A stretch of 25,104 nt of DNA from a virus: IMG/VR virus record IMGVR_UViG_3300030117_002070, positions 1 to 25,104 of that record. The stretch is one strand, 5' to 3'. Of this stretch, positions 3,301-24,916 are shown in pieces. The translations under genes and the position numbers were made by a program. The number at the start of each line of letters is the position of its first letter. Position 1 is the first letter of the stretch. Below the pieces are notes generated by a model. That model saw only the letters and a list, made by a program, of their open reading frames with translations. It was not told the origin of the DNA and did no database searches.

Positions 3301-3709
3301 TTATACCGCTATAAGATCAATGTTAGGTTCTATAATGAGTGAATTTATGGAAGGTGACTATGAACAGCAAAGAGAAATTAATATTAAAGATGATGTTCCA
3401 GATGGTGTATTTTCTAAAAGTGTGGATTATCCCGGAAAAGAATTTTTTCCTTCTAACCCAGAATCTCGTTTTGCTACAACAACATCTCAAATTAAAATGG
3501 GAGAAGAGTTACAAAATATAAAAGAAGATGAAAATAGACCTGTTGAATCGTCTAGTTTATCAAATCAAAATCTTGGATTTAGAAACATAAGCATGAATGA
3601 TAGAGCGAGAACAAAAGAACTTGGAAAAGAATTATTTAAAGATGATATTACATTTGCCGCTAAAGGTGGAATCATGAACGCACGTAAACCAATGCAGAGG
3701 GTAGCGTAA
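392..3709 (+). CDS. Large (1105 aa) virion protein, probably internal/ejection-type
   Basis: At 1105 aa this is the longest gene in the window. It starts inside the stop of the previous gene (TAATG). The N-terminal ~120 residues are charged and probably coiled. A Gly/Ala-rich, weakly hydrophobic stretch lies around residues 205-255 and another around 290-320; the rest is helical, Lys/Asn/Asp-rich and cysteine-free. The C-terminus ends in the short tail AAKGGIMNARKPMQRVA. I find no catalytic motif such as a transglycosylase ESGF-type site. Length, helical character and location next to other structural-type genes fit podovirus internal-core or DNA-ejection proteins, or a tail-associated protein. 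The coding assignment is certain; the virion role is inference. Confidence 0.85.
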   Translation: MAKTIDQIANEEINKQNRRDAEFGYLSGVGQSSDQPDKNLATAQDAKSTDADAVVTPSLERVIETGFDYNAAINDINKEYEDLQKRIDEPGLFLPEPGDYQLQQQKTEKIRDAKLKYVESKVGVPVNNHNEMGFWISTLLQRYKTPEVKENAFKYFYPDGDMMEVPIIGTDGKKKVISIYRRNQDEEYGLLYPMGRDINEFGVVGAELLSARTVGATLAFLADPTKNPAIAAGVGDYMGIKVDKLINWGLGKALGFEGGEGEFYKVDKLSDLKPTEFLPLQFGPEQGYYGIGMDEDVFGAALTSLFTKGIGIGTNLVTGQSRPTLIKISKELDLPPAVVAQMAANPLIQKMFFRAGDITGWTNKKTLPQRAELYNKFKAYGIGMKNADDVAAIEKSINAQYLNGDFGKKGSIEAIGAKNKALNKALKDASETNQITWQDWSDLVEIQTQKLAEAMKPFRMVGDDGVPYYVTPTEGYVALKNAFQEWDEVITKGIDKTRAAAINNSTGVSYVIGGKDSLKGLINELETGTGVFQGSGASNVSGVGTSKFFNEAGELVTSKIAIDLTKKSNKPLLELINDIKALDDVIINPKTNTPNLGAIKGKNSQWDAFSQLEVLRNKAFTLMNNEDAAVRGAARKIHQKIVNIMEDNTGKFKNGGSSKYNDSMSLYLKNIKDYEDVVGLKDMMTAMSNKVDPEQFAAKYFQPGSGYNLTLLKNQLGPDNVNWTTFEKSFKASLLRDPTNIKATIKKWQTQDPDGLKTLLDDTEIEDLIKLGNTAETMNNSIVIKAFENQSSNTVANTKELVNTLLKQAEGKNLGDAKVIEKFIQSSGGMDGKVMNNVRSGIIEDILNRSSVVDTKTGSLVIQPKKLMAELKTLGDDPHLKMFFTPENLSTLGKFELYTNVIGASSDFGGQLAAAEIGTEVTKSLLDPSKILPTLKTMLTFDITARILGRDVTPKMLQNLFQPGLNTNVNYTAIRSMLGSIMSEFMEGDYEQQREINIKDDVPDGVFSKSVDYPGKEFFPSNPESRFATTTSQIKMGEELQNIKEDENRPVESSSLSNQNLGFRNISMNDRARTKELGKELFKDDITFAAKGGIMNARKPMQRVA

Positions 3710-5035: not shown

Positions 5036-5601
5036 TGAAAAATATAATTTTAATAATACTATTAACTATAGTAGTATTTATATCTAAACCTTTATTTGCA
5101 GCAGATACAAACACAGTTTCTTCTACGGTAGTTACAAATAATACACCAAGCACGGCCAACGCACCAAGCGTTGTAGTTAATAATTCAGACATCTGTAAGA
5201 CAGCGGCATCGACCGCGGTTCAAACACAAATACTAGGTTTAGCGACCGGCGTAACAATCACAGACGAAAACTGTGAACGTATAAAACTATCACGGTCATT
5301 ATATTCTATGGGCATGAAAGTTGCCGCGGTGTCAACATTATGTGCTGATCCTAGAGTATGGGACGCAATGTATATGGCAGGCACGTATTGTCCGTATATG
5401 GGTGCTATTGGCGAAGAAGCAAAAGACGGATGGGAAAAAAACCCGGAACTCGTACCAGAAGGTAGTGTGGTATTTGCAAAAGTAGAACAAGATATTATAG
5501 ATCAACAAAAAACAACAGGATTAACCGATGGGCAAAAGTTTGCGAAGTTTGTTTTATTTGGCATGGCTATGCATTCTGGCATCGTGGCCTTCTTCCCTTA
5601 G
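5035..5601 (+). CDS. Exported cysteine-containing phage protein
   Basis: 188 aa with a classical signal peptide: MKN, a hydrophobic core at residues 4-20, and a likely cleavage after LFA at residue 22. The mature part opens with a Thr/Ser/Asn/Val-rich linker, then a domain with four cysteines (in SDIC, ENC, STLC and TYC) that could form disulfides in the periplasm, and ends with a hydrophobic C-terminus (LFGMAMHSGIVAFFP) that may be a membrane anchor. I do not recognise a named family; similar proteins are, to my memory, frequent in uncultured marine phage contigs. Its last 74 bases are shared, in another frame, with the signal peptide of the next gene. Confidence 0.8.
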   Translation: MKNIILIILLTIVVFISKPLFAADTNTVSSTVVTNNTPSTANAPSVVVNNSDICKTAASTAVQTQILGLATGVTITDENCERIKLSRSLYSMGMKVAAVSTLCADPRVWDAMYMAGTYCPYMGAIGEEAKDGWEKNPELVPEGSVVFAKVEQDIIDQQKTTGLTDGQKFAKFVLFGMAMHSGIVAFFP

Positions 5602-7315
5602 AGCAGTAGATTGTTCAACAGATACTGTTGGGCTTTGTTCTCCTACTATAGAAGAAATAATAGATGAAACATCGACAGAGACAATACAATATGAAGCTGA
5701 TGGTTACACAGTAACTACAGAAACCACTACCAATACAACGACAACTACTGTCACTAATGAAGACAGTGGTGATATTCTTGACGGTGACAATGACTATGTT
5801 GCTACTAGTAAAGAGGGAGACATGGACGTGGATTGGGGCGGCCAAGGACCTGCTAGTATGCCGTCTGGCAATAGCTGTTTTGGTCTAGGAGCTGATAAAT
5901 GCGCACAGATTACAGGTAGTGGTAATAGCACATCAACAATGGGTGTATCTGGTATGGGTACAACTTTTATTAATACTGTAGATATATCTGATCTTGATAT
6001 TACTCACGGTGGTAAAGCAAACTATACAATTAAAGTAGATAAACAGGATGCGCAAGACCGTATCTATATGCACATTACAGGTCGTAATGGTAATACAAAC
6101 GTGTTCCAAGGAACAGACATATTATCAGAGTCTGGTGTAGCAAGTGGATATCAAGCATACGAAGGTGGCTTTGACTTCGCTGGTACAATAAACAAGCTTA
6201 TAATTGAAGTGGGTGGCCGTGATATAAACTTGGCTATCGGACCACTCTTTGATGATGTAACGGTCAATGTTCTATACAACACGGTAAATACAATCGTACA
6301 ACAATCTATTACAAGTGTAGAAATGTGGGTAGCTTACGGTGGCAGCACAGAGACAGAAGTTATCACGGTAGTAGAAAATATATTTGAACATAATGATGTT
6401 ATAGAAACACCAGAGGGTGATATGTACTTTGAGCCAGAGTTTGATGAACCCGATATGAATATGTCATATGAAACTGTAGAAATAGAAATGGAATTTGAGA
6501 TGGATTTCGAGATGGACTTTGAGTTTGATATGCCAGATTTGGAAATGCCAGAGATGGAAATGAACATGGAAATTGCCACTGTAGAGATGGAAATGGAAAT
6601 GGAAATGAGTATGGAAATGGATTTTGAGATGGATATGGAAATGCCAGAACCAATGGAAATGGCTGAAATGGATATGGAGATAGAGATGCCAGAAATGGAT
6701 ATGGAAATGCCAGAACCGGACATGGATATGGAAATGCCAGAACCGGACATGGAACCAGAGATGGACATAGAACCAGAACCTAATCCGGAATCCGAACCAG
6801 AAATGGAGGAACCAGTAAATGAACCAGAAACTGAACCCGAAGCTGAAGTTGAGCCAGAACCCGTGGAAGAGCCTGCTGAAGAGCCTGCTGAAGAAAGTGC
6901 AGACGATGTGGCAGAAGAGCCAGAAGCGGAAGAAAGCGTTTCAGAGACTGAAGCAGATGAGGAGCAACCAGAAGATATGGAAGAACCAGAGGATAAGGGT
7001 GAAGCCGAAGAGAAACCTGTAAAGAAACCAGTATCTAAAAAAGAAAAAGCGGCTAAAAAAATAGTAAAAAAAATGGGAGATAAAGGTAGATATGATTCAA
7101 ACAATCAGTTAAAAACACTTATTGTGATGCAAGTTTTAGGTAACACAAAGACCTTTTTTGAATCACAGCAACAACTAAACGATAGGATAGGATTCTTTAC
7201 AGATGAGAGTTTGCCTGATGCGTTTATAAATGATAATAATATAGCTAGTTATTTCTTGTTCGCAGGAAGTGATGGTTTAATGGATGAAATGGTAATGCAA
7301 CAATGGCAGAAGTAG
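5528..7315 (+). CDS. Exported Met/Asp/Glu-repeat protein
   Basis: 595 aa. The ATG at 5528 is preceded by AGGA seven bases upstream and begins a signal peptide (basic MGKSLRS, hydrophobic LFYLAWLCILASW, cleavage likely after LRA, residue 26). Residues ~27-300 form a beta-rich, Gly/Thr/Asp-rich domain with two cysteine pairs (DCSTDTVGLC; SCFGLGADKC). Residues ~300-425 alternate Met with Glu/Asp (EMEMEMEM, MPEPDMDMEMPEPD). Residues ~425-495 are Glu/Pro-rich, ~497-517 Lys-rich, and ~518-595 form a compact C-terminal domain. It overlaps the gene before by 74 bases and the one after by 13. The function is unknown; metal binding, envelope spanning or adhesion are possibilities. The C-terminal domain after the linker suggests a tethered two-domain protein. 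Confidence 0.85.
   Translation: MGKSLRSLFYLAWLCILASWPSSLRAVDCSTDTVGLCSPTIEEIIDETSTETIQYEADGYTVTTETTTNTTTTTVTNEDSGDILDGDNDYVATSKEGDMDVDWGGQGPASMPSGNSCFGLGADKCAQITGSGNSTSTMGVSGMGTTFINTVDISDLDITHGGKANYTIKVDKQDAQDRIYMHITGRNGNTNVFQGTDILSESGVASGYQAYEGGFDFAGTINKLIIEVGGRDINLAIGPLFDDVTVNVLYNTVNTIVQQSITSVEMWVAYGGSTETEVITVVENIFEHNDVIETPEGDMYFEPEFDEPDMNMSYETVEIEMEFEMDFEMDFEFDMPDLEMPEMEMNMEIATVEMEMEMEMSMEMDFEMDMEMPEPMEMAEMDMEIEMPEMDMEMPEPDMDMEMPEPDMEPEMDIEPEPNPESEPEMEEPVNEPETEPEAEVEPEPVEEPAEEPAEESADDVAEEPEAEESVSETEADEEQPEDMEEPEDKGEAEEKPVKKPVSKKEKAAKKIVKKMGDKGRYDSNNQLKTLIVMQVLGNTKTFFESQQQLNDRIGFFTDESLPDAFINDNNIASYFLFAGSDGLMDEMVMQQWQK
6485..6800 (+). repeat. In-frame GARATG-type repeats encoding the Met/acidic tract
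   Basis: This stretch is built from degenerate 6-base units (GAAATG, GAGATG, GATATG, GACATG). It contains a perfect 27-base tandem duplication: copy one is 6695-6721 and copy two 6722-6748, each encoding MDMEMPEPD, with a 23-base partial third copy at 6629-6651. All units are multiples of three, so gain or loss keeps the frame. The complementary strand is an accidental long Ser/Ile/Gly-rich open frame and is not a gene. Confidence 0.9.
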
Positions 7316-13110: not shown

Positions 13111-13881
13111 ATGGCAAATGCTAATGTTGCAAAAAAAGAAGAAAGTAAACTACCTGCACTAAGTTTGGATTTGATGGAAGGGGACGCACATAGCGGACTT
13201 GAAAACATATCACAAGATGACTTAGCAACACCAAGACTAAAAGTCTTGATGCAGTTATCACCAGAGATAGAAGAGATCGAAGGTGCTAAATCCGGTATGA
13301 TTTATAATACGGTGACTAATGATCTGTATGATGGATCAAAAGGTATTCGTGTTCTACCGTGTGCGTATCAACGTCAATACGTTGAGTGGGCTGACAGAGG
13401 GCAAGGATCGGGTGCGCCGATTAATGTCTATGATGCTTCTAGTGACATCTTGACAAAAACTACAAGGGATGACAACAACAAAGATCGTTTAGAAAACGGA
13501 AACTATGTTGAAACTTGTGGTAACCACTATGTACTACTTGTTACTGAGCAAGGGGATGCAACTCCTGCTTTGATAACAATGAAAGCTACACAGCTTAAAA
13601 AGAGTAGAAAGTGGAACTCTATGTTACTAAATCTAAAATTAAACGGTAAGAATGGATTGTTTACTCCACCATCTTACAGCCACTACTATCGCCTTAAAAC
13701 TACCAAAGAAGGTAATGATAAAGGTAACTGGTGGGGCTGGGAGGTCAGTAGAGAATCTCAACTTGAAGATGCTAACCTTTACAGTATCGCTAAGGCATTT
13801 GCTGAAAGCGTGAACAAAGGTGAAGTTAAAGTCAAGTATGAAGAAGAGTCTTCTACAGGTGAACAAAAGGTTCCGTTTTAA
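13111..13881 (+). CDS. Possible ssDNA-binding / replication accessory protein
   Basis: 256 aa behind a strong AAAAAGGAGAAA ribosome-binding site. A variable N-terminus (MANANVAKKEESKLPALSLD) precedes a beta-rich core containing ATPRLKVLMQLSPE, GIRVLPCAYQRQYVEW, HYVLLVTEQG and GNWWGWEVSRESQ. The acidic C-terminus ends EESSTGEQKVPF, like the acidic tail with terminal Pro-Phe of bacterial SSB, which recruits partner enzymes. Gene order (just ahead of primase, helicase and polymerase) and high-expression features (strong RBS, own terminator) fit an ssDNA-binding protein. I cannot confirm an OB fold from sequence alone. Confidence 0.55.
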   Translation: MANANVAKKEESKLPALSLDLMEGDAHSGLENISQDDLATPRLKVLMQLSPEIEEIEGAKSGMIYNTVTNDLYDGSKGIRVLPCAYQRQYVEWADRGQGSGAPINVYDASSDILTKTTRDDNNKDRLENGNYVETCGNHYVLLVTEQGDATPALITMKATQLKKSRKWNSMLLNLKLNGKNGLFTPPSYSHYYRLKTTKEGNDKGNWWGWEVSRESQLEDANLYSIAKAFAESVNKGEVKVKYEEESSTGEQKVPF

Positions 13882-13915: not shown

Positions 13916-13926
13916 AGTGAGTGCAC

Positions 13927-15477
13927 ATGGAAGAAAGAGTAAAGAAGTTTAAGAGCATATTTTATGGATTAGACCGCGCTTATGGTCAATATAAAAGTGA
14001 TGGCGAGTCAATAAATGGTAAAGCTAGTGGTAAAGCTTTTATAAAAAAAGCACCTGTTACAGATCAATTATGGATAGATCATATAGAGGGTAAGGATCCT
14101 AGTCTTGGTATTATACCAATAAGAGATAATTCAAAATGTATATGGGGTTGTATAGATATAGATACATACCCGTTAGATCATAAAAAGATTGTTAGAAAGA
14201 TAAGAGATTTAGAACTACCGCTTGTTATGTGTAGATCAAAGAGTGGTGGAGCACACGTATTTTTATTTACAAAAGAACCCGTGCAAGCAAAGCTTGTTCG
14301 TGATAAACTACAAGAATGGGCAGGAGAATTAGGTTATGCAAATTGTGAAATATTTCCAAAACAAATTGAAATACAAGCGGATCGTGGAGATACTGGAAAC
14401 TTTCTTAATCTTCCCTATCACGGTGGTGATGATTCTATGCGCCATGGCTATAGTGACGATGGGAGCGCTAGTAGTCTTGATGATTTCTTTTCTTTATATG
14501 ACACTTATTGTACGACCGAAGAAAGTTTAAAACAATTTAAAGTAAAAAGAAAGAATGATGTTGAATTAAATGATGGACCTCCGTGTTTATCAACATTGAT
14601 GTCACAAGGTATACCACCCGGCGGAAGAGATAACACATTATATCAATACGCAGTATACGCAAAAAAGAAGTGGCCAGAAGATTGGTCAACAAAAATAGAA
14701 GAGTTTAATTATAAGTATATGGAAACACCATTACCCGCACAACAAGTTTTAAAAACAATAAGACAACATGAGAAAAAAGATTATCAATACAAATGTAAAG
14801 ATCAACCTATGTGTGCTGTGTGTTCACAAAATTTATGTAGAGGAAAACAATATGGTATTGGTAATTCTTTTGAACATCAAGTAAGTGACTTAACAAAATT
14901 TGAAAGTGATGAATCAACTTGGTTTTTAAATATAGATGGTAGAAGATTAAAGTTATCGACCGATCAATTGTATAATCAACATAAATTTAGACAAGCATGT
15001 ATGAATGAAATAAATGTAATGCCTAACATGATGAGACCGGCTGATTGGGACAGTAGATTACAAGCATTATTAGATAGTGTTGAAGTTATACAGATGCCAC
15101 ATGAAATTACAAAGACAGGTAGATTTGAAAGTTTACTAGAACGTTTCTTAGAAGATCAAGGAATAGCAGAACACATAGATGAAATAGATATGGGTAAAGC
15201 ATTGTTTGAAGAAAAAGAATATGAAGAAAAAGAAGGTAAAGTAAAAAGAGAAACTGCATATTTTAAATCAGAATGGTTGCAGAAGTTCTTGAAAAAGAAT
15301 GATTTTAAAGATTTTAGTACCACACAAATGTTGGCACATATAAGAAGTAAATTGAACGGCGGGGATGGTAGAAGAAAAATAAAAGGTAAGACAGCATATC
15401 TTTGGTATGTGCCTTGGATAAGAAAAAACAGCGATGAATTTTCTACACCAGACATGGGAGAGGAGACACCGTTTTGA
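13927..15477 (+). CDS. Archaeo-eukaryotic-type (AEP) DNA primase
   Basis: 516 aa. It has the AEP catalytic signature: motif I IDIDTYPLDH with D77-I-D79, motif II SKSGGAHVFLF (H110), then GNFLNLPYHGGD (~157-168). A PriCT-like helical segment (GGRDNTLYQYAVYAKKKW, ~232-249) and a four-cysteine cluster C-x5-C-x2-C-x4-C (290-304, in KCKDQPMCAVCSQNLC) follow. The C-terminal ~180 residues are helical and end DMGEETPF. It synthesises primers for PolA. I prefer ATG 13927 (GTGAG upstream); an in-frame GTG at 13921 would add two residues. The gene starts 21 bases after the terminator hairpin, so it depends on read-through or its own weak promoter. Confidence 0.88.
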   Translation: MEERVKKFKSIFYGLDRAYGQYKSDGESINGKASGKAFIKKAPVTDQLWIDHIEGKDPSLGIIPIRDNSKCIWGCIDIDTYPLDHKKIVRKIRDLELPLVMCRSKSGGAHVFLFTKEPVQAKLVRDKLQEWAGELGYANCEIFPKQIEIQADRGDTGNFLNLPYHGGDDSMRHGYSDDGSASSLDDFFSLYDTYCTTEESLKQFKVKRKNDVELNDGPPCLSTLMSQGIPPGGRDNTLYQYAVYAKKKWPEDWSTKIEEFNYKYMETPLPAQQVLKTIRQHEKKDYQYKCKDQPMCAVCSQNLCRGKQYGIGNSFEHQVSDLTKFESDESTWFLNIDGRRLKLSTDQLYNQHKFRQACMNEINVMPNMMRPADWDSRLQALLDSVEVIQMPHEITKTGRFESLLERFLEDQGIAEHIDEIDMGKALFEEKEYEEKEGKVKRETAYFKSEWLQKFLKKNDFKDFSTTQMLAHIRSKLNGGDGRRKIKGKTAYLWYVPWIRKNSDEFSTPDMGEETPF

Positions 15478-16997
15478 GAAACATTATTTTTGGACCACCG
15501 GGAACAGGTAAGACAACTTATTTACTACGCATAGTAGAAAAAGAGTTGCGTGAAAATAAAGTTAATCCTAATAAAATTGCTTACCTTGCTTTTACAAATC
15601 AAGCGGCAGATGAAGCATTGGCTCGTGCTATTTCACAATTAAGTTATGACTCAAAAGAGTTTTCAAACTTTCGTACACTGCATAGTTTAGCATACAGAGA
15701 GCTACATTTAAAAGAAGAAAACATTATGAGTGATGATGATTACAAAAAAGTTTCTGATAAGACACAAATAAAATTAAGTAATCCAAATAATAATATTAAA
15801 TCATATGGTGCAGGTTTTCCAGATGATGTGTTTATGCAAGTAATAGATGGTGCAAAGATAAGAGGTATTACACCAGAAAATTATTTTAATGATCCAGACA
15901 TAGGAAACATAGAAGGTGGTTTGCGAAAATTAAAATACATAGATAAGTCTTTGATTGATTATAAAAGAGAAAGAAACAAGTACGATATGACAGACATGAT
16001 TATAGATTTTAATAAAAAACATTATGACCTTATGCCAAACTTTGATGTAGTTATTATTGATGAAGCACAAGATCTTAGTTGGTTACAATGGAAAATGGTT
16101 GAGCGTGTTGTGACAAAAGCAAAGCGTGTGTATGTTGCAGGTGATGATGATCAAGCGATTTATCGTTGGGCAGGTGCAAGACCAGAGTTCTTAATGAACA
16201 TGGAAGGCACAAGAACAATATTAAATAAATCATATCGTTTAGCAGAGTCTATTCATGCAAAAGCAAATAAATTAATTAAGCGTGTAAAAGATAGAGTAGA
16301 TAAAGAATGGACAGCGCGTGATGAAAAAGGTCAAGTAAACATACATCCAATAGAACAATTACAAAAAATGAAAGAGGGTCAGTGGTTGATATTGGCAAGA
16401 GACGGATACCGTTTAGATAAGTTAGAAGATGAATTAAAAATTTACGGTTACTTCTATGAAAGAGGAGATCGTACTTCTATTAATAAACGTGTGCATGAAG
16501 CTATACTTGCATGGGAAGATGTTCGTAGAGGTAAAGAATTAGATATTAGAAGAGTAAAATCATTTTATAATTATGTTAAAACAGGAGAAGGTGTTGATAA
16601 AAAATTTAAATCAATGAAGAATGTAGATAAAGATAAAACATTTACCTTTGATACATTAACATCTGATTATGGATTAAAGTTAGATAAAGAATTACCTTGG
16701 TTCAAAGCATTAGAAAATATTGAACCACAAAAGAAAACTTATGTACGTATGTGTTTACGTCGTAAAGAAAACATTAGACGCGCACCACGGATCAAACTAT
16801 CTACGATACATGGATCAAAAGGTGGTGAAGCAGATAATGTAATGTTATTAACAGATTTAACTCGTAAAGCCGATGCATCGTATTGGAAACAACGAGACGA
16901 AGAGCGACGCGTATTCTATGTGGGAATGACGCGTGCAAGAAACACCTTGAACATTGTGAGATCACAATCGGATAGAGAATTTTCGGAGGCATTTTAA
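15474..16997 (+). CDS. UvrD/PcrA-like superfamily 1 helicase
   Basis: 507 aa. The TTG start at 15474 (TTGA overlap with the primase stop) is fixed by the GAGAGGAGA Shine-Dalgarno about 9 bases upstream and by Walker A lying at residues 7-14 (GPPGTGKT); no ATG exists ahead of it. Motif Ia is LAFTNQAADEA, motif II DEAQ (~196-199), motif III AGDDDQAIYRWAGA (~222-235), motif V STIHGSKGGEAD and motif VI YVGMTRARN (~482). The order is that of UvrD/Rep helicases, 3'-5' ssDNA translocases, though it is shorter than full UvrD (~700 aa). No DnaB-type helicase is in the window, so this may be the fork helicase. Confidence 0.93.
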   Translation: MRNIIFGPPGTGKTTYLLRIVEKELRENKVNPNKIAYLAFTNQAADEALARAISQLSYDSKEFSNFRTLHSLAYRELHLKEENIMSDDDYKKVSDKTQIKLSNPNNNIKSYGAGFPDDVFMQVIDGAKIRGITPENYFNDPDIGNIEGGLRKLKYIDKSLIDYKRERNKYDMTDMIIDFNKKHYDLMPNFDVVIIDEAQDLSWLQWKMVERVVTKAKRVYVAGDDDQAIYRWAGARPEFLMNMEGTRTILNKSYRLAESIHAKANKLIKRVKDRVDKEWTARDEKGQVNIHPIEQLQKMKEGQWLILARDGYRLDKLEDELKIYGYFYERGDRTSINKRVHEAILAWEDVRRGKELDIRRVKSFYNYVKTGEGVDKKFKSMKNVDKDKTFTFDTLTSDYGLKLDKELPWFKALENIEPQKKTYVRMCLRRKENIRRAPRIKLSTIHGSKGGEADNVMLLTDLTRKADASYWKQRDEERRVFYVGMTRARNTLNIVRSQSDREFSEAF

Positions 16998-17185: not shown

Positions 17186-17471
17186 AGAGTATTTAGATAC
17201 AGCGGCAAAGATTGTTACTGGTCAACGCCAACATGATTACGGTGATAAATATCAAAATCATGAAAACATTGCAAAGTTATGGAGTGCATATTTAGATTAT
17301 AATATATCAGCACATGATGTGGCGATATGTATGTTGCTTGTAAAAGTAGCAAGACTTAAACACAGACCTACAGAAGATTGTTACATAGACATGGCGGGAT
17401 ATGCGGCGATTGCAGGCGAAATACAGGATAAAGATAATGACACAGATACCACTATTTCAACCACCAAGTGA
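17175..17471 (+). CDS. DUF6378-like phage protein
   Basis: 98 aa. The start is set by AAAAAGGAGAAAG directly upstream of ATG 17175; an in-frame ATG at 17085 lacks one and lies deep inside the previous gene. The all-alpha sequence carries RQHDYGDKYQNHENIAKLWS and AHDVAICMLLVKVARLKH, then DCYIDMAGYAAIAGEI. I recognise this pattern as the DUF6378 family of phage and prophage proteins, function unknown. The compact four-helix style with acidic and His residues recalls MazG-type nucleotide hydrolases, but I see no full MazG motif. It overlaps polA by 35 bases. Confidence 0.8.
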   Translation: MRTREYLDTAAKIVTGQRQHDYGDKYQNHENIAKLWSAYLDYNISAHDVAICMLLVKVARLKHRPTEDCYIDMAGYAAIAGEIQDKDNDTDTTISTTK

Positions 17472-19302
17472 GTGGACACCACCGGAAAAAGTTCCTAATC
17501 TTTCTGAAGCGAAAGAGATAGCTGTAGACTTAGAAACATACGATCCAGACATTAAAACAAATGGTCCGGGCTGGGCGATAGATAATGGATATGTAGCAGG
17601 AATTGCGATAGCTGTAGAAGGTTGGAAAGGTTATTTTCCTATACGTCATGAGGGTGGTGGTAACTTTGATGAAGGTATACTTAAAAGACAAATACAAAAA
17701 ATCATGGATTTACCATGTGATAAAATATTTCATAACGCGGCTTACGATGTAGGTTGGCTTAGATGGTGGGGTGTAGAAGTCAAAGGTAAAATTATAGATA
17801 CCTTGATTGCCGCGCCACTTATAGATGAAAATAGATTTAGATACTCGCTAAACGAACTTGGTAAAGATTATTTAAAAGATACAAAGTCAGAGGCATTACT
17901 ATATGAAGCCGCAAGAGAATGGGGTGTTGATGCGAAAGCAGAAATGTACAAGCTACCTGCTATGTATGTTGGTCCTTATGCAGAACAGGACGCGGATCTT
18001 ACACTTAGATTGTGGCAACATTTTAAATTAGAATTAATTAAACAAGAGTTATCAAATATCTTTGACCTCGAAACACGGCTCTTTCCATGTTTACTTGACA
18101 TGAAAACAAAAGGTGTGCGTGTTGATTTAAACAAAGCAGATAGAATAAAAAAAGATTTACAAAAAAAAGAAACACAACTTTTATCACAAATAAAAAAAGA
18201 CACAGGTGTTGATGTTGATATTTGGGCGGCAGTAAGTGTAGCAAAAGCATTTGATAAATTAAATATTAGATACGAGCGCACTGAAAAGTCCGGGCAACCA
18301 AAGTTTGATAAAAACTTTTTATCTACACATAAACATCCATTAGCTAAAATGGTAGTGCAAGCAAGAGAGTTTAATAAAGCACGTACAACTTTTATTGACA
18401 CAATACTTACACATTCTTATCACAGCAGAATTCACGCCGATATCAATCAAATGCGTGGTGAAACAGGAGGAACGGTCACAGGACGGTTCAGTTATAGTAA
18501 TCCAAACCTACAACAAATTCCTGCACGTAATAAAGATATCGGGCCGTTGATACGATCAATCTTCGTCCCAGACGAGGGTTGCAAGTGGGGTAGTTTCGAC
18601 TACTCTCAGCAAGAGCCACGCGTTCTTGTGCACTTCGCCGCGCTTACCGGCGGTGGCTTGAAAGGCGCCGACGAGGTCATAGAGTCTTATAAGACACAGG
18701 ACCCCGACTTTCACCAAGCTGTCGCCGATATGGCCGGCATAGACCGACGTACAGCCAAGACGATTAATCTTGGTATGATGTACGGTATGGGTAAAGGAAA
18801 ACTAGCTAGCGAGTTAGGTTTAGATAGAGAAGAAACAGAAGATTTATTCGCAAAGTTTCATGCTAATGTACCCTTCGTAAAACAGTTGATGGAACAAGCA
18901 ACTAGAAAAGCAGAGAATGTAGGTTTCTTACGTACACTGCTTGGTCGTAAGTGTCGTTTTGATTTATGGGAACCACGCGCTTTTGGTATTCATAAGGCAT
19001 TGCCATTGTGGGAAGCAGAGAAAGAGTATGGACGTGACTTAAAAAGGGCATGGACGTACAAGGCACTTAATAGATTGATACAAGGTTCTAGTGCTGACAT
19101 GACAAAGAAAGCGATGGTAGATCTATACGAAGAGGGTATTATTTCGCATATACAGGTTCATGATGAGTTAAACTGTTCTATTGAGAGCAAGGAACACGCA
19201 ACACGGATCAAAGAAGTAATGGAGAATACCGTAGAGTTAAAGGTTCCTCTTAAAGTAGACGCGGAAATAGGACCATCGTGGGGAGAAATAAAAAAGAAAT
19301 GA
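17437..19302 (+). CDS. polA: Family A DNA polymerase (PolA-type) with 3'-5' exonuclease
   Basis: 621 aa, about Klenow size. Start at 17437 with AGGATAAAG upstream. The proofreading exonuclease is intact: Exo I AVDLETYDP (D31, E33), Exo II HNAAYDVGW (N100, D104), Exo III YAEQD (Y181, D185). Polymerase motifs are TGRFSYSNPNLQQIP, motif A DYSQQEPRVLVHFA (D388), motif B RRTAKTINLGMMYGMG (~437-452) and motif C VHDE (H575-E577). No 5' nuclease domain is present. It is the likely replicative polymerase. Bases ~18541-18780 are about 55% G+C against ~30-37% on either side, a mosaic-like patch over motifs A-B. The stop overlaps the HNH gene start (ATGA). Confidence 0.97.
   Translation: MTQIPLFQPPSEWTPPEKVPNLSEAKEIAVDLETYDPDIKTNGPGWAIDNGYVAGIAIAVEGWKGYFPIRHEGGGNFDEGILKRQIQKIMDLPCDKIFHNAAYDVGWLRWWGVEVKGKIIDTLIAAPLIDENRFRYSLNELGKDYLKDTKSEALLYEAAREWGVDAKAEMYKLPAMYVGPYAEQDADLTLRLWQHFKLELIKQELSNIFDLETRLFPCLLDMKTKGVRVDLNKADRIKKDLQKKETQLLSQIKKDTGVDVDIWAAVSVAKAFDKLNIRYERTEKSGQPKFDKNFLSTHKHPLAKMVVQAREFNKARTTFIDTILTHSYHSRIHADINQMRGETGGTVTGRFSYSNPNLQQIPARNKDIGPLIRSIFVPDEGCKWGSFDYSQQEPRVLVHFAALTGGGLKGADEVIESYKTQDPDFHQAVADMAGIDRRTAKTINLGMMYGMGKGKLASELGLDREETEDLFAKFHANVPFVKQLMEQATRKAENVGFLRTLLGRKCRFDLWEPRAFGIHKALPLWEAEKEYGRDLKRAWTYKALNRLIQGSSADMTKKAMVDLYEEGIISHIQVHDELNCSIESKEHATRIKEVMENTVELKVPLKVDAEIGPSWGEIKKK
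18541..18780 (+). other. GC-rich island inside polA
   Basis: By hand count this 240-base stretch has 132 G/C (55%), peaking at 62% in 18601-18660, whereas 18301-18360 has 27% and 18841-18900 37%. Codons shift toward C/G endings (GCC, GAC, TTC, CCC) only here, and the reading frame is uninterrupted. It encodes residues ~369-448, polymerase motifs A to B. Likely a recombination or conversion tract from a GC-richer relative; a nucleic-acid-level constraint is the alternative. Confidence 0.75.
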
Positions 19303-23642: not shown

Positions 23643-23679
23643 AGTCCTTTGATATCATGTTTTTTACGTTTGGACAAGT

Positions 23680-23719
23680 GTAACGGTTTGTAATGGTATG
23701 TAACGGTAAGTAACGGTTG
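23680..23719 (-). repeat. Four tandem 10-bp repeats, GTAACGGT core
   Basis: Plus-strand units are GTAACGGTTT, GTAATGGTAT, GTAACGGTAA and GTAACGGTTG, exactly 10 bases each, so all copies face the same side of the helix. They occupy the 83-base gap between two minus-strand genes, upstream of the 84-aa gene. The GTAAC core recurs in the intergenic region at 24216-24303. Confidence 0.9.
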
Positions 23720-24130: not shown

Positions 24131-24149
24131 TGTAGATAGTTGTGGATAA
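24131..24149 (-). promoter_or_regulatory. Pair of DnaA boxes
   Basis: TGTGGATAA (24141-24149) is the exact complement of the consensus DnaA box TTATCCACA. Ten bases left, TGTAGATAG (24131-24139) matches 7 of 9 positions in the same orientation, so the two are phased by one helical turn. Confidence 0.65.
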
Positions 24150-24165
24150 CTTTCGCTTTGTATAG

Positions 24166-24205
24166 TAATTTTAATTTAAAATAAAAAAAATAATTTTTAT
24201 TTTTA
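24166..24205. other. 40-bp pure A/T tract, candidate DNA-unwinding element
   Basis: No G or C occurs from 24166 to 24205, and the flanks to 24212 hold only one C. It lies between the DnaA boxes and the GTAAC iterons, the usual place of an unwinding element in an origin. Confidence 0.6.
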
Positions 24206-24215
24206 CAAATATGAC

Positions 24216-24303
24216 GTAACCACGTAACTTTAGCATTAATCTATTGAAATATAACAATAATATCGTTACTTTGACCACGTAACCAGACGTAACCAGACGT
24301 AAC
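24216..24303 (+). repeat. GTAAC iteron cluster upstream of terS
   Basis: GTAAC occurs at 24216, 24224, 24279, 24289 and 24299, plus inverted GTTAC at 24265. The last three copies are in near-identical 10-base units (ACGTAACCAG type) phased exactly 10 bases apart; the first two share ACGTAAC 8 bases apart. The group ends 100 bases before the terminase small-subunit ATG. Confidence 0.85.
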
Positions 24304-24403
24304 CACCCTATATACCTTTTTCAAATGCAATTTAATATATTATATTATAAATAGTAAATAAATAATACTATACAGAGATGCTAAAGTGTATTAAAATGAA
24401 AAC

Positions 24404-24916
24404 ATGCCTAAAATAAGAGATGGTGCATTAACACCTAAACAGAGAGCTTTTGTAGAGATATTTGTTAAAGAGAATGGTAGATTGACTGCTACAGAATGTG
24501 CTAAACAGGCAGGCTATTCAGAGAAGTCTGCTATTTCACAAGCGTGTAATCTTAGAAATCCAAAGTATTTCCCTAAAGTTGTAGAAGCCATAGAGGATTT
24601 ACAGCGTGAATATGCAGAAGCAAGTAAAATAGATTTTGTTAAACACTCAAGAGAATTGTCTCGTTTAAGAGATCATGCTGTGACAAATGGTCAATTAGGA
24701 CCTGCTGTCCAAGCTGAATACCGTCGTGGTCAGTTAGCAGGATTCTATGTTGATAGAAAAGAGGTTGTAACAGCCTCGCTTGACAACATGACTAGACCAG
24801 AACTTGAAGCTAAACTCAAAGAGATTAGAGATCATAATGTTATCAATGGCGAAGCTATTGGTGTTGAAGTTAAAGAAGTGATAGAATTAGAAGACATATC
24901 AAAGCCCAAAAAATAA
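24404..24916 (+). CDS. terS: Terminase small subunit
   Basis: 170 aa. The N-terminal LTPKQRAFVEIFVKENGRLT then ATECAKQAGYSEKSAISQAC and NLRNPKYFPKVVEAI is the helix-turn-helix DNA-binding domain of the Terminase_2-type small subunits (PF03592-like). The middle is helical (YAEASKIDFVKHSRELSRLR, oligomerisation-type) and the C-terminus acidic (VKEVIELEDISKPKK). TerS recognises the phage DNA and hands it to the large terminase, which is not in the window. The leader is very AT-rich with a poor Shine-Dalgarno (TTAAAATGAAAAC). Repeats and the candidate origin lie immediately upstream. Confidence 0.85.
   Translation: MPKIRDGALTPKQRAFVEIFVKENGRLTATECAKQAGYSEKSAISQACNLRNPKYFPKVVEAIEDLQREYAEASKIDFVKHSRELSRLRDHAVTNGQLGPAVQAEYRRGQLAGFYVDRKEVVTASLDNMTRPELEAKLKEIRDHNVINGEAIGVEVKEVIELEDISKPKK

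Follow-up and report, generated by a model that had tools for sequence, protein, structure and literature searches.

A conserved non-coding block upstream of terS

The window, meaning the whole 25,104-bp stretch of DNA analyzed here, is an IMG/VR virus fragment that is kin to HTVC023P-type marine phages. Its plus-strand genes include an AEP primase (AEP-TOTE; 13921–15477), which is the candidate initiator and carries a predicted winged helix at about 15199–15414; an SF1 (UvrD-like) helicase (15474–16997), a probable replisome partner; a family A DNA polymerase with a 3ʹ to 5ʹ exonuclease domain (17401–19302); and the small terminase gene terS (24404–24916). The polymerase shares 50% to 60% identity with those of psg01, DSL-LC04, HTVC023P, and HTVC027P. 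The window also encodes a 595-amino acid protein with long, acidic MEM/MEP-rich repeats (5528–7315). Both the primase (15438–15474, GEETPF) and a Pam3_Gp34-like protein (13840–13878, EQKVPF) end in PF tips that recall the C-terminal tail of SSB.

Upstream of terS lies a conserved, non-coding core block of about 220 bases (approximately 24156–24377), bounded by two tips (GTATAG and CTATACAG). The left tip, CTTTGTATAGTA (24156–24167, plus strand), forms a sharp edge at TATAG, beyond which most relatives carry unrelated sequence. It recurs in inverted form, with 11 of 12 bases matching, as the right tip TACTATACAGAG (24366–24377, minus strand), and CTATACAG is present in psg01 too. Between the tips, an A/T-only tract of exactly 40 bp (24166–24205) constitutes a candidate unwinding element of the kind that adjoins the repeats of iteron-type origins; an A/T run of even 36 bases was absent from all 100 shuffles, and relatives have an A/T-rich stretch likewise placed. 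Next come a word pair, ACGTAACC and ACGTAAC, set 8 bp apart (24214–24228, plus strand), and a core formed by the imperfect palindrome TATTGAAATATAACAATA (24242–24259), of which TTGATATACAACA-like forms occur in HTVC023P-type and G014-type phages. An inverted copy of the word (24265–24269, minus strand; GTTAC on the plus strand) precedes three ACGTAACC words in exact 10-bp phase (24277–24304, plus strand). On the plus strand, GTAAC thus starts at 24216, 24224, 24279, 24289, and 24299, with the inverted GTTAC at 24265. The 10-bp GTAACC triple did not occur once in 100 shuffles. To the right of the words, the box CTATATACCTTTTT (24308–24321, plus strand) repeats part of the left tip region in direct orientation.

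A preliminary description had proposed a replication origin at 24131–24303, and every element that it listed is present: an exact DnaA box, a partner matching at seven of nine positions, the 40-base A/T tract, the GTAACC triple, two further GTAAC copies, and the inverted copy. Its boundaries take in only part of the feature, since the tips, the palindrome at 24242–24259, and a second phased array at 23679–23718 were missed. In this second array, TGTAACGGTT occurs four times at a 10-bp phase, and the GTAAC core is common to both arrays; one relative (L007) has two similar copies in opposite orientation near 3640–3670.

The terminal inverted repeats were compared with local shuffles and differed from them in psg01 and DSL-LC04 (p 0.001 in each) and at the borderline in HTVC023P (0.035), with no significance in the window (0.29) or G015 (0.20). 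They were dropped as a defining feature. When arms were matched within and between phages, without a control for relatedness, clade 1 gave a significant result for inverted repeats, whereas the HTVC023P clade gave one for direct repeats only. A structured RNA was also rejected as an explanation of the block: no Rfam match was found in the window, and the phasing suggests duplex DNA.

A fixed frame carrying different words

The comparison drew on eighty retrieved contigs whose terS is related, and conservation was counted over 76 loci. The 8-bp word pair is retained in 75 of these, and 69 have at least three copies at 10- or 11-bp spacing; control windows further upstream contain no run of three or more. 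Relative to terS, the forward GTAAC copies of relatives lie at about −189, −181, −126, −116, and −106, and the inverted copy near −140. Copy number in the phased set varies by whole 10-bp units (two in L078, four in L016), and in three loci (L011, L016, and L037) all direct copies have switched jointly from GTAAC to GTTAC; in a scan for the GTTAC pattern, only these three were true elements, as judged by flanking sequence. No other non-coding array of this type was found in G001, which is near-complete, or in the 58-kb G014, which is probably complete, its ends overlapping by 94 bp. Iteron-type origins are marked by phased direct repeats that relatives share, and this part of the earlier expectation, retention of the phasing among relatives, was borne out.

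The DnaA box fared differently. The exact box TTATCCACA (24141–24149, minus strand) is expected 0.31 times per window and appears in 23 of 100 shuffles, and its weak partner CTATCTACA (24131–24139; pair at 24131–24149), with two mismatches, belongs to a class of matches found at chance level (116 against 106 expected). Both lie outside the conserved block and are specific to the subclade. An origin opened by host DnaA, with the repeats incidental, would account for an exact box beside an A/T tract and for its presence in 12 of the 16 closest relatives. However, conserved DnaA boxes are not seen: the box occurs in 23 of 76 relatives, mainly the nearest kin of the window, and is absent from the other 53, nearly all of which have the array, and the partner is neither conserved nor above chance. 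This makes a DnaA-dependent origin very improbable, and the opening role that the preliminary description had given to host DnaA is not upheld.

Beyond the close relatives, the layout persists with other words. The word positions in the window have offsets of 0, 8, 63, 73, and 83 (GTAACC), whereas those in HTVC027P have offsets of 0, 8, 62, 72, and 82 (TGTTWCA/TGTGACA). In HTVC023P-type phages, the word is CTAGGAAA, with a pair 8 bp apart and more copies at about 52, 63, and 84; in psg01-type phages, it is TGGCACA in a similar layout. As far as the sequences indicate, the geometry of the block is kept across the clades of a large and abundant group of phages while the word changes. HTVC023P and HTVC027P infect one host, HTCC1062, yet have different words. 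A host protein is therefore unlikely to read the word, and the reader is probably a phage protein.

Several loci depart from the common arrangement. In two G014-type contigs (L093 and L114), the words on the right-hand side run in inverse orientation, with the palindrome GGTTACGTAACC at their end, and each contig contains the core twice. Another (L051) has an intact terS and has lost most of the element, the left pair running straight into what precedes the start of terS. In L039, an insertion of about 213 bp separates the element from terS and contains a reading frame that, by eye, looks GcrA-like. The intergenic regions of L005, L014, L021, and L045 have a recurrent GGACAATGGACAAA upstream of small leftward genes and also beside some elements. 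Furthermore, four HTVC023P-type contigs (L532, L553, L577, and L595) carry tandem repeats of about 30 bp just after terS, with a phage-specific unit.

The primase tail as candidate reader of the word

The phages G015 and G016 carry the same word as the window, although their proteins are as distant from those of the window as the proteins of psg01 are. Residues 1–360 of the window-type primase score 407 bits against G015 (same word) and 436 bits against psg01 (other word). From residue 361 to the end, the scores are 58 bits to G015, 79 bits to DSL-LC04, and 16 bits to psg01. The psg01 primase tail matches the HTVC027P tail (39–41 bits) despite distant N-terminal parts. A ranking of 36 segments from seven shared proteins, by the gap between same-word G015 and the best of three other-word phages, placed primase residues 451–518 first (0.19), with the primase tail again second (0.11). 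When ranked against psg01 alone, TerS residues 76–150 came first (0.21 versus 0.19); the gap of this segment to the other two phages was 0.05.

Primase class equals word class in all 25 sequences with both. This comparison omits the GTTAC variant, whose contigs are without a primase. Because the N- and C-terminal parts of the primase agree within clades, G015 and psg01 are the only discriminating cases, and few independent lineages lie behind the link: a single pair that shares the word (window type and G015) and a single discordance between N- and C-terminal parts (psg01). Two observations count against it, namely that the psg01 and HTVC027P tails are related while their words differ, and that DSL-LC04 has a window-like tail and ambiguous words.

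For primase residues 425–496, AlphaFold gives a strand-strand-helix-helix-strand-strand arrangement with a pLDDT of about 85 to 91; the tail is thereby predicted to fold as a winged helix, whose recognition helix would lie at about residues 465–475. A Foldseek search with the tail alone returned no significant match; the model of the whole primase resembles SaPIbov1 Rep weakly in fold (8tch; probability 0.97–0.99, E value 0.1–0.2). PriCT_1 was not detected in the primase of the window and is present in that of psg01. C-terminal winged helices of AEP primases have been proposed to function in origin recognition, as in ColE2 Rep (PMC5862659); SaPI Rep reads iterons through its C-terminal domain (PMC7581432), and NrS-1 PrimPol recognizes TTTGGTTA (PMC8718748). 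On these comparisons, the predicted winged helix at the C-terminal end of the AEP primase is the best candidate for the word reader. The preliminary description had seen no evident phage initiator; the primase is now a concrete one to consider.

Packaging, regulation, or replication

The proximity to terS raises the possibility of a pac site, which the preliminary description did not consider although the neighboring terS is of the SPP1/SF6 type. As the main rival explanation, the small and large terminases would recognize the block on the concatemer and cut it, and headful packaging would start there, as in SPP1. A scan with the words only, with no terS in the query, returned 93 stretches, and wherever the contig was long enough, terS started 183 to 243 bp downstream in the same orientation. 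The association extends to phages in which TerS identity is as low as 40%, and in L065-type contigs, the block and terS are inverted together. Moreover, TerS belongs to Terminase_2 and matches the solved small terminases of SF6 and SPP1 (E 0.012–0.025), and in SPP1, pac has three sets of direct repeats that cover the promoters as well as the beginning of terS (PMC4737164, PMC6316719). Against this, the TerS proteins of L037 and L039 are identical over residues 1–150, yet their arrays are GTTAC and GTAAC, respectively, and the TerS HTH domain is not tied to the word (window type to G015, 47 bits; to psg01, 47 bits; to HTVC027P, 57 bits). TerS is thus an unlikely reader of the word. In psg01 and HTVC027P, terS is on the other strand and convergent with the block, which precedes another gene. 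The DNA-binding domain of SF6 TerS binds without sequence preference (PMC4737164), so a mismatch between word and TerS is compatible with a pac site. Overall, a pac site is a serious but less likely reading, and the block may have a double role as origin and pac.

The stretch of about 750 bp before terS is enriched in contig ends, which are scattered with no single fixed coordinate; breaks in the assembly of a variable region are just as likely a cause. The distribution of ends also bears on a lambda-like cos site, whose cohesive ends would be fixed and for which the position upstream of terS and the resemblance of the palindromic core and repeats to cosN and cosB could be cited. Fixed genome ends, as found at a lambda-type cos, were not seen at the site: most contigs, including the circular-looking G014, pass through the block, and the nearby ends are scattered. 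A cos site is extremely improbable.

Alternatively, the block could be a regulatory region in which a phage activator or repressor on the phased words controls terS or late transcription. The 10-bp phasing fits a regulator on one helix face, the distance to terS is fixed in most relatives, and the second array with a GTAAC core (23679–23718) lies beside another gene start. However, the block does not precede terS in psg01 and HTVC027P, which led to rejection of a terS promoter as its general function. Promoter-like matches are at chance level, and the 40-bp A/T tract, tips, and core exceed what an operator needs. We consider regulation improbable.

The reading that we prefer, with a probability of roughly 60%, is that the block at 24156–24377 is an iteron origin, with the primase acting as the initiator that opens it. 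The earlier identification of a phage origin thus stands in part: the conserved geometry, a word class that follows the C-terminal domain of the primase, and the sole such array in G014 and G001 speak for it, and the DnaA role is not supported. In this mechanism, the C-terminal winged helix of the primase would bind the GTAACC words, those spaced by 10 bp lying on one helix face, and primase binding would bend and open the adjacent 40-bp A/T tract. The SF1 helicase would then enter, the primase would prime in place, and the family A polymerase would extend, as the gene content suggests. The geometry would be set by the fit of several primase copies on the DNA and the word by the winged helix, and the word and the winged helix would change together upon domain exchange. 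Host DnaA would be at most an extra in the subclade of the window. Counted against a primase-initiated origin is the distance of about 8.7 kb between the primase gene and the block. Additionally, GC skew, suggested earlier as a check, showed no significant turn at fourfold sites in G014 (p 0.51) or HTVC023P (p 0.15); raw GC skew tracks gene direction.

For the HTVC023P-type group as a whole, we tentatively suggest, at somewhat less than even odds, that the primase is the origin-recognition protein and that word and winged helix are swapped together, as matched partners, while the frame stays fixed, giving each phage a private origin even on a shared host. No replication origin for this group was found in the literature searched. 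If the proposal is true, origin and initiator would be testable in two cultured phages of one host, and the several words on one frame would constitute a natural experiment in the co-evolution of an initiator DNA-binding domain and its site.

Known systems share parts of this arrangement. The Rep/iteron origin of SaPIs, and also of Cch2 of SCCmec, is like the arrangement proposed here in that a mobile-element initiator reads short repeats via its C-terminal domain (PMC7581432); that initiator is a self-loading helicase with the origin just downstream of rep, whereas here it would be a distant primase. ColE2 Rep is an AEP primase whose C-terminal PriCT-1/HTH module opens its origin (PMC5862659); the psg01 primase has PriCT_1, which was not detected in that of the window. 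SPP1 oriL and oriR likewise combine direct repeats with an A/T-rich unwinding element, which in SPP1 are bound by a phage protein (PMC6316719), but the SPP1 initiator is gp38 and the helicase is of the DnaB type. The SPP1/SF6 pac similarly places direct repeats where the gene for a related small terminase begins; here, in contrast, the word does not follow TerS, and the strand relation to terS is variable. Finally, NrS-1 PrimPol, also an AEP enzyme encoded by a phage, recognizes a specific 8-nt word, and a pair of such words has been proposed as the origin (PMC8718748, PMC7102993). It differs in that the template it reads is single-stranded and a phased array is absent, although its word, TTTGGTTA, appears to resemble TGGTTACG.
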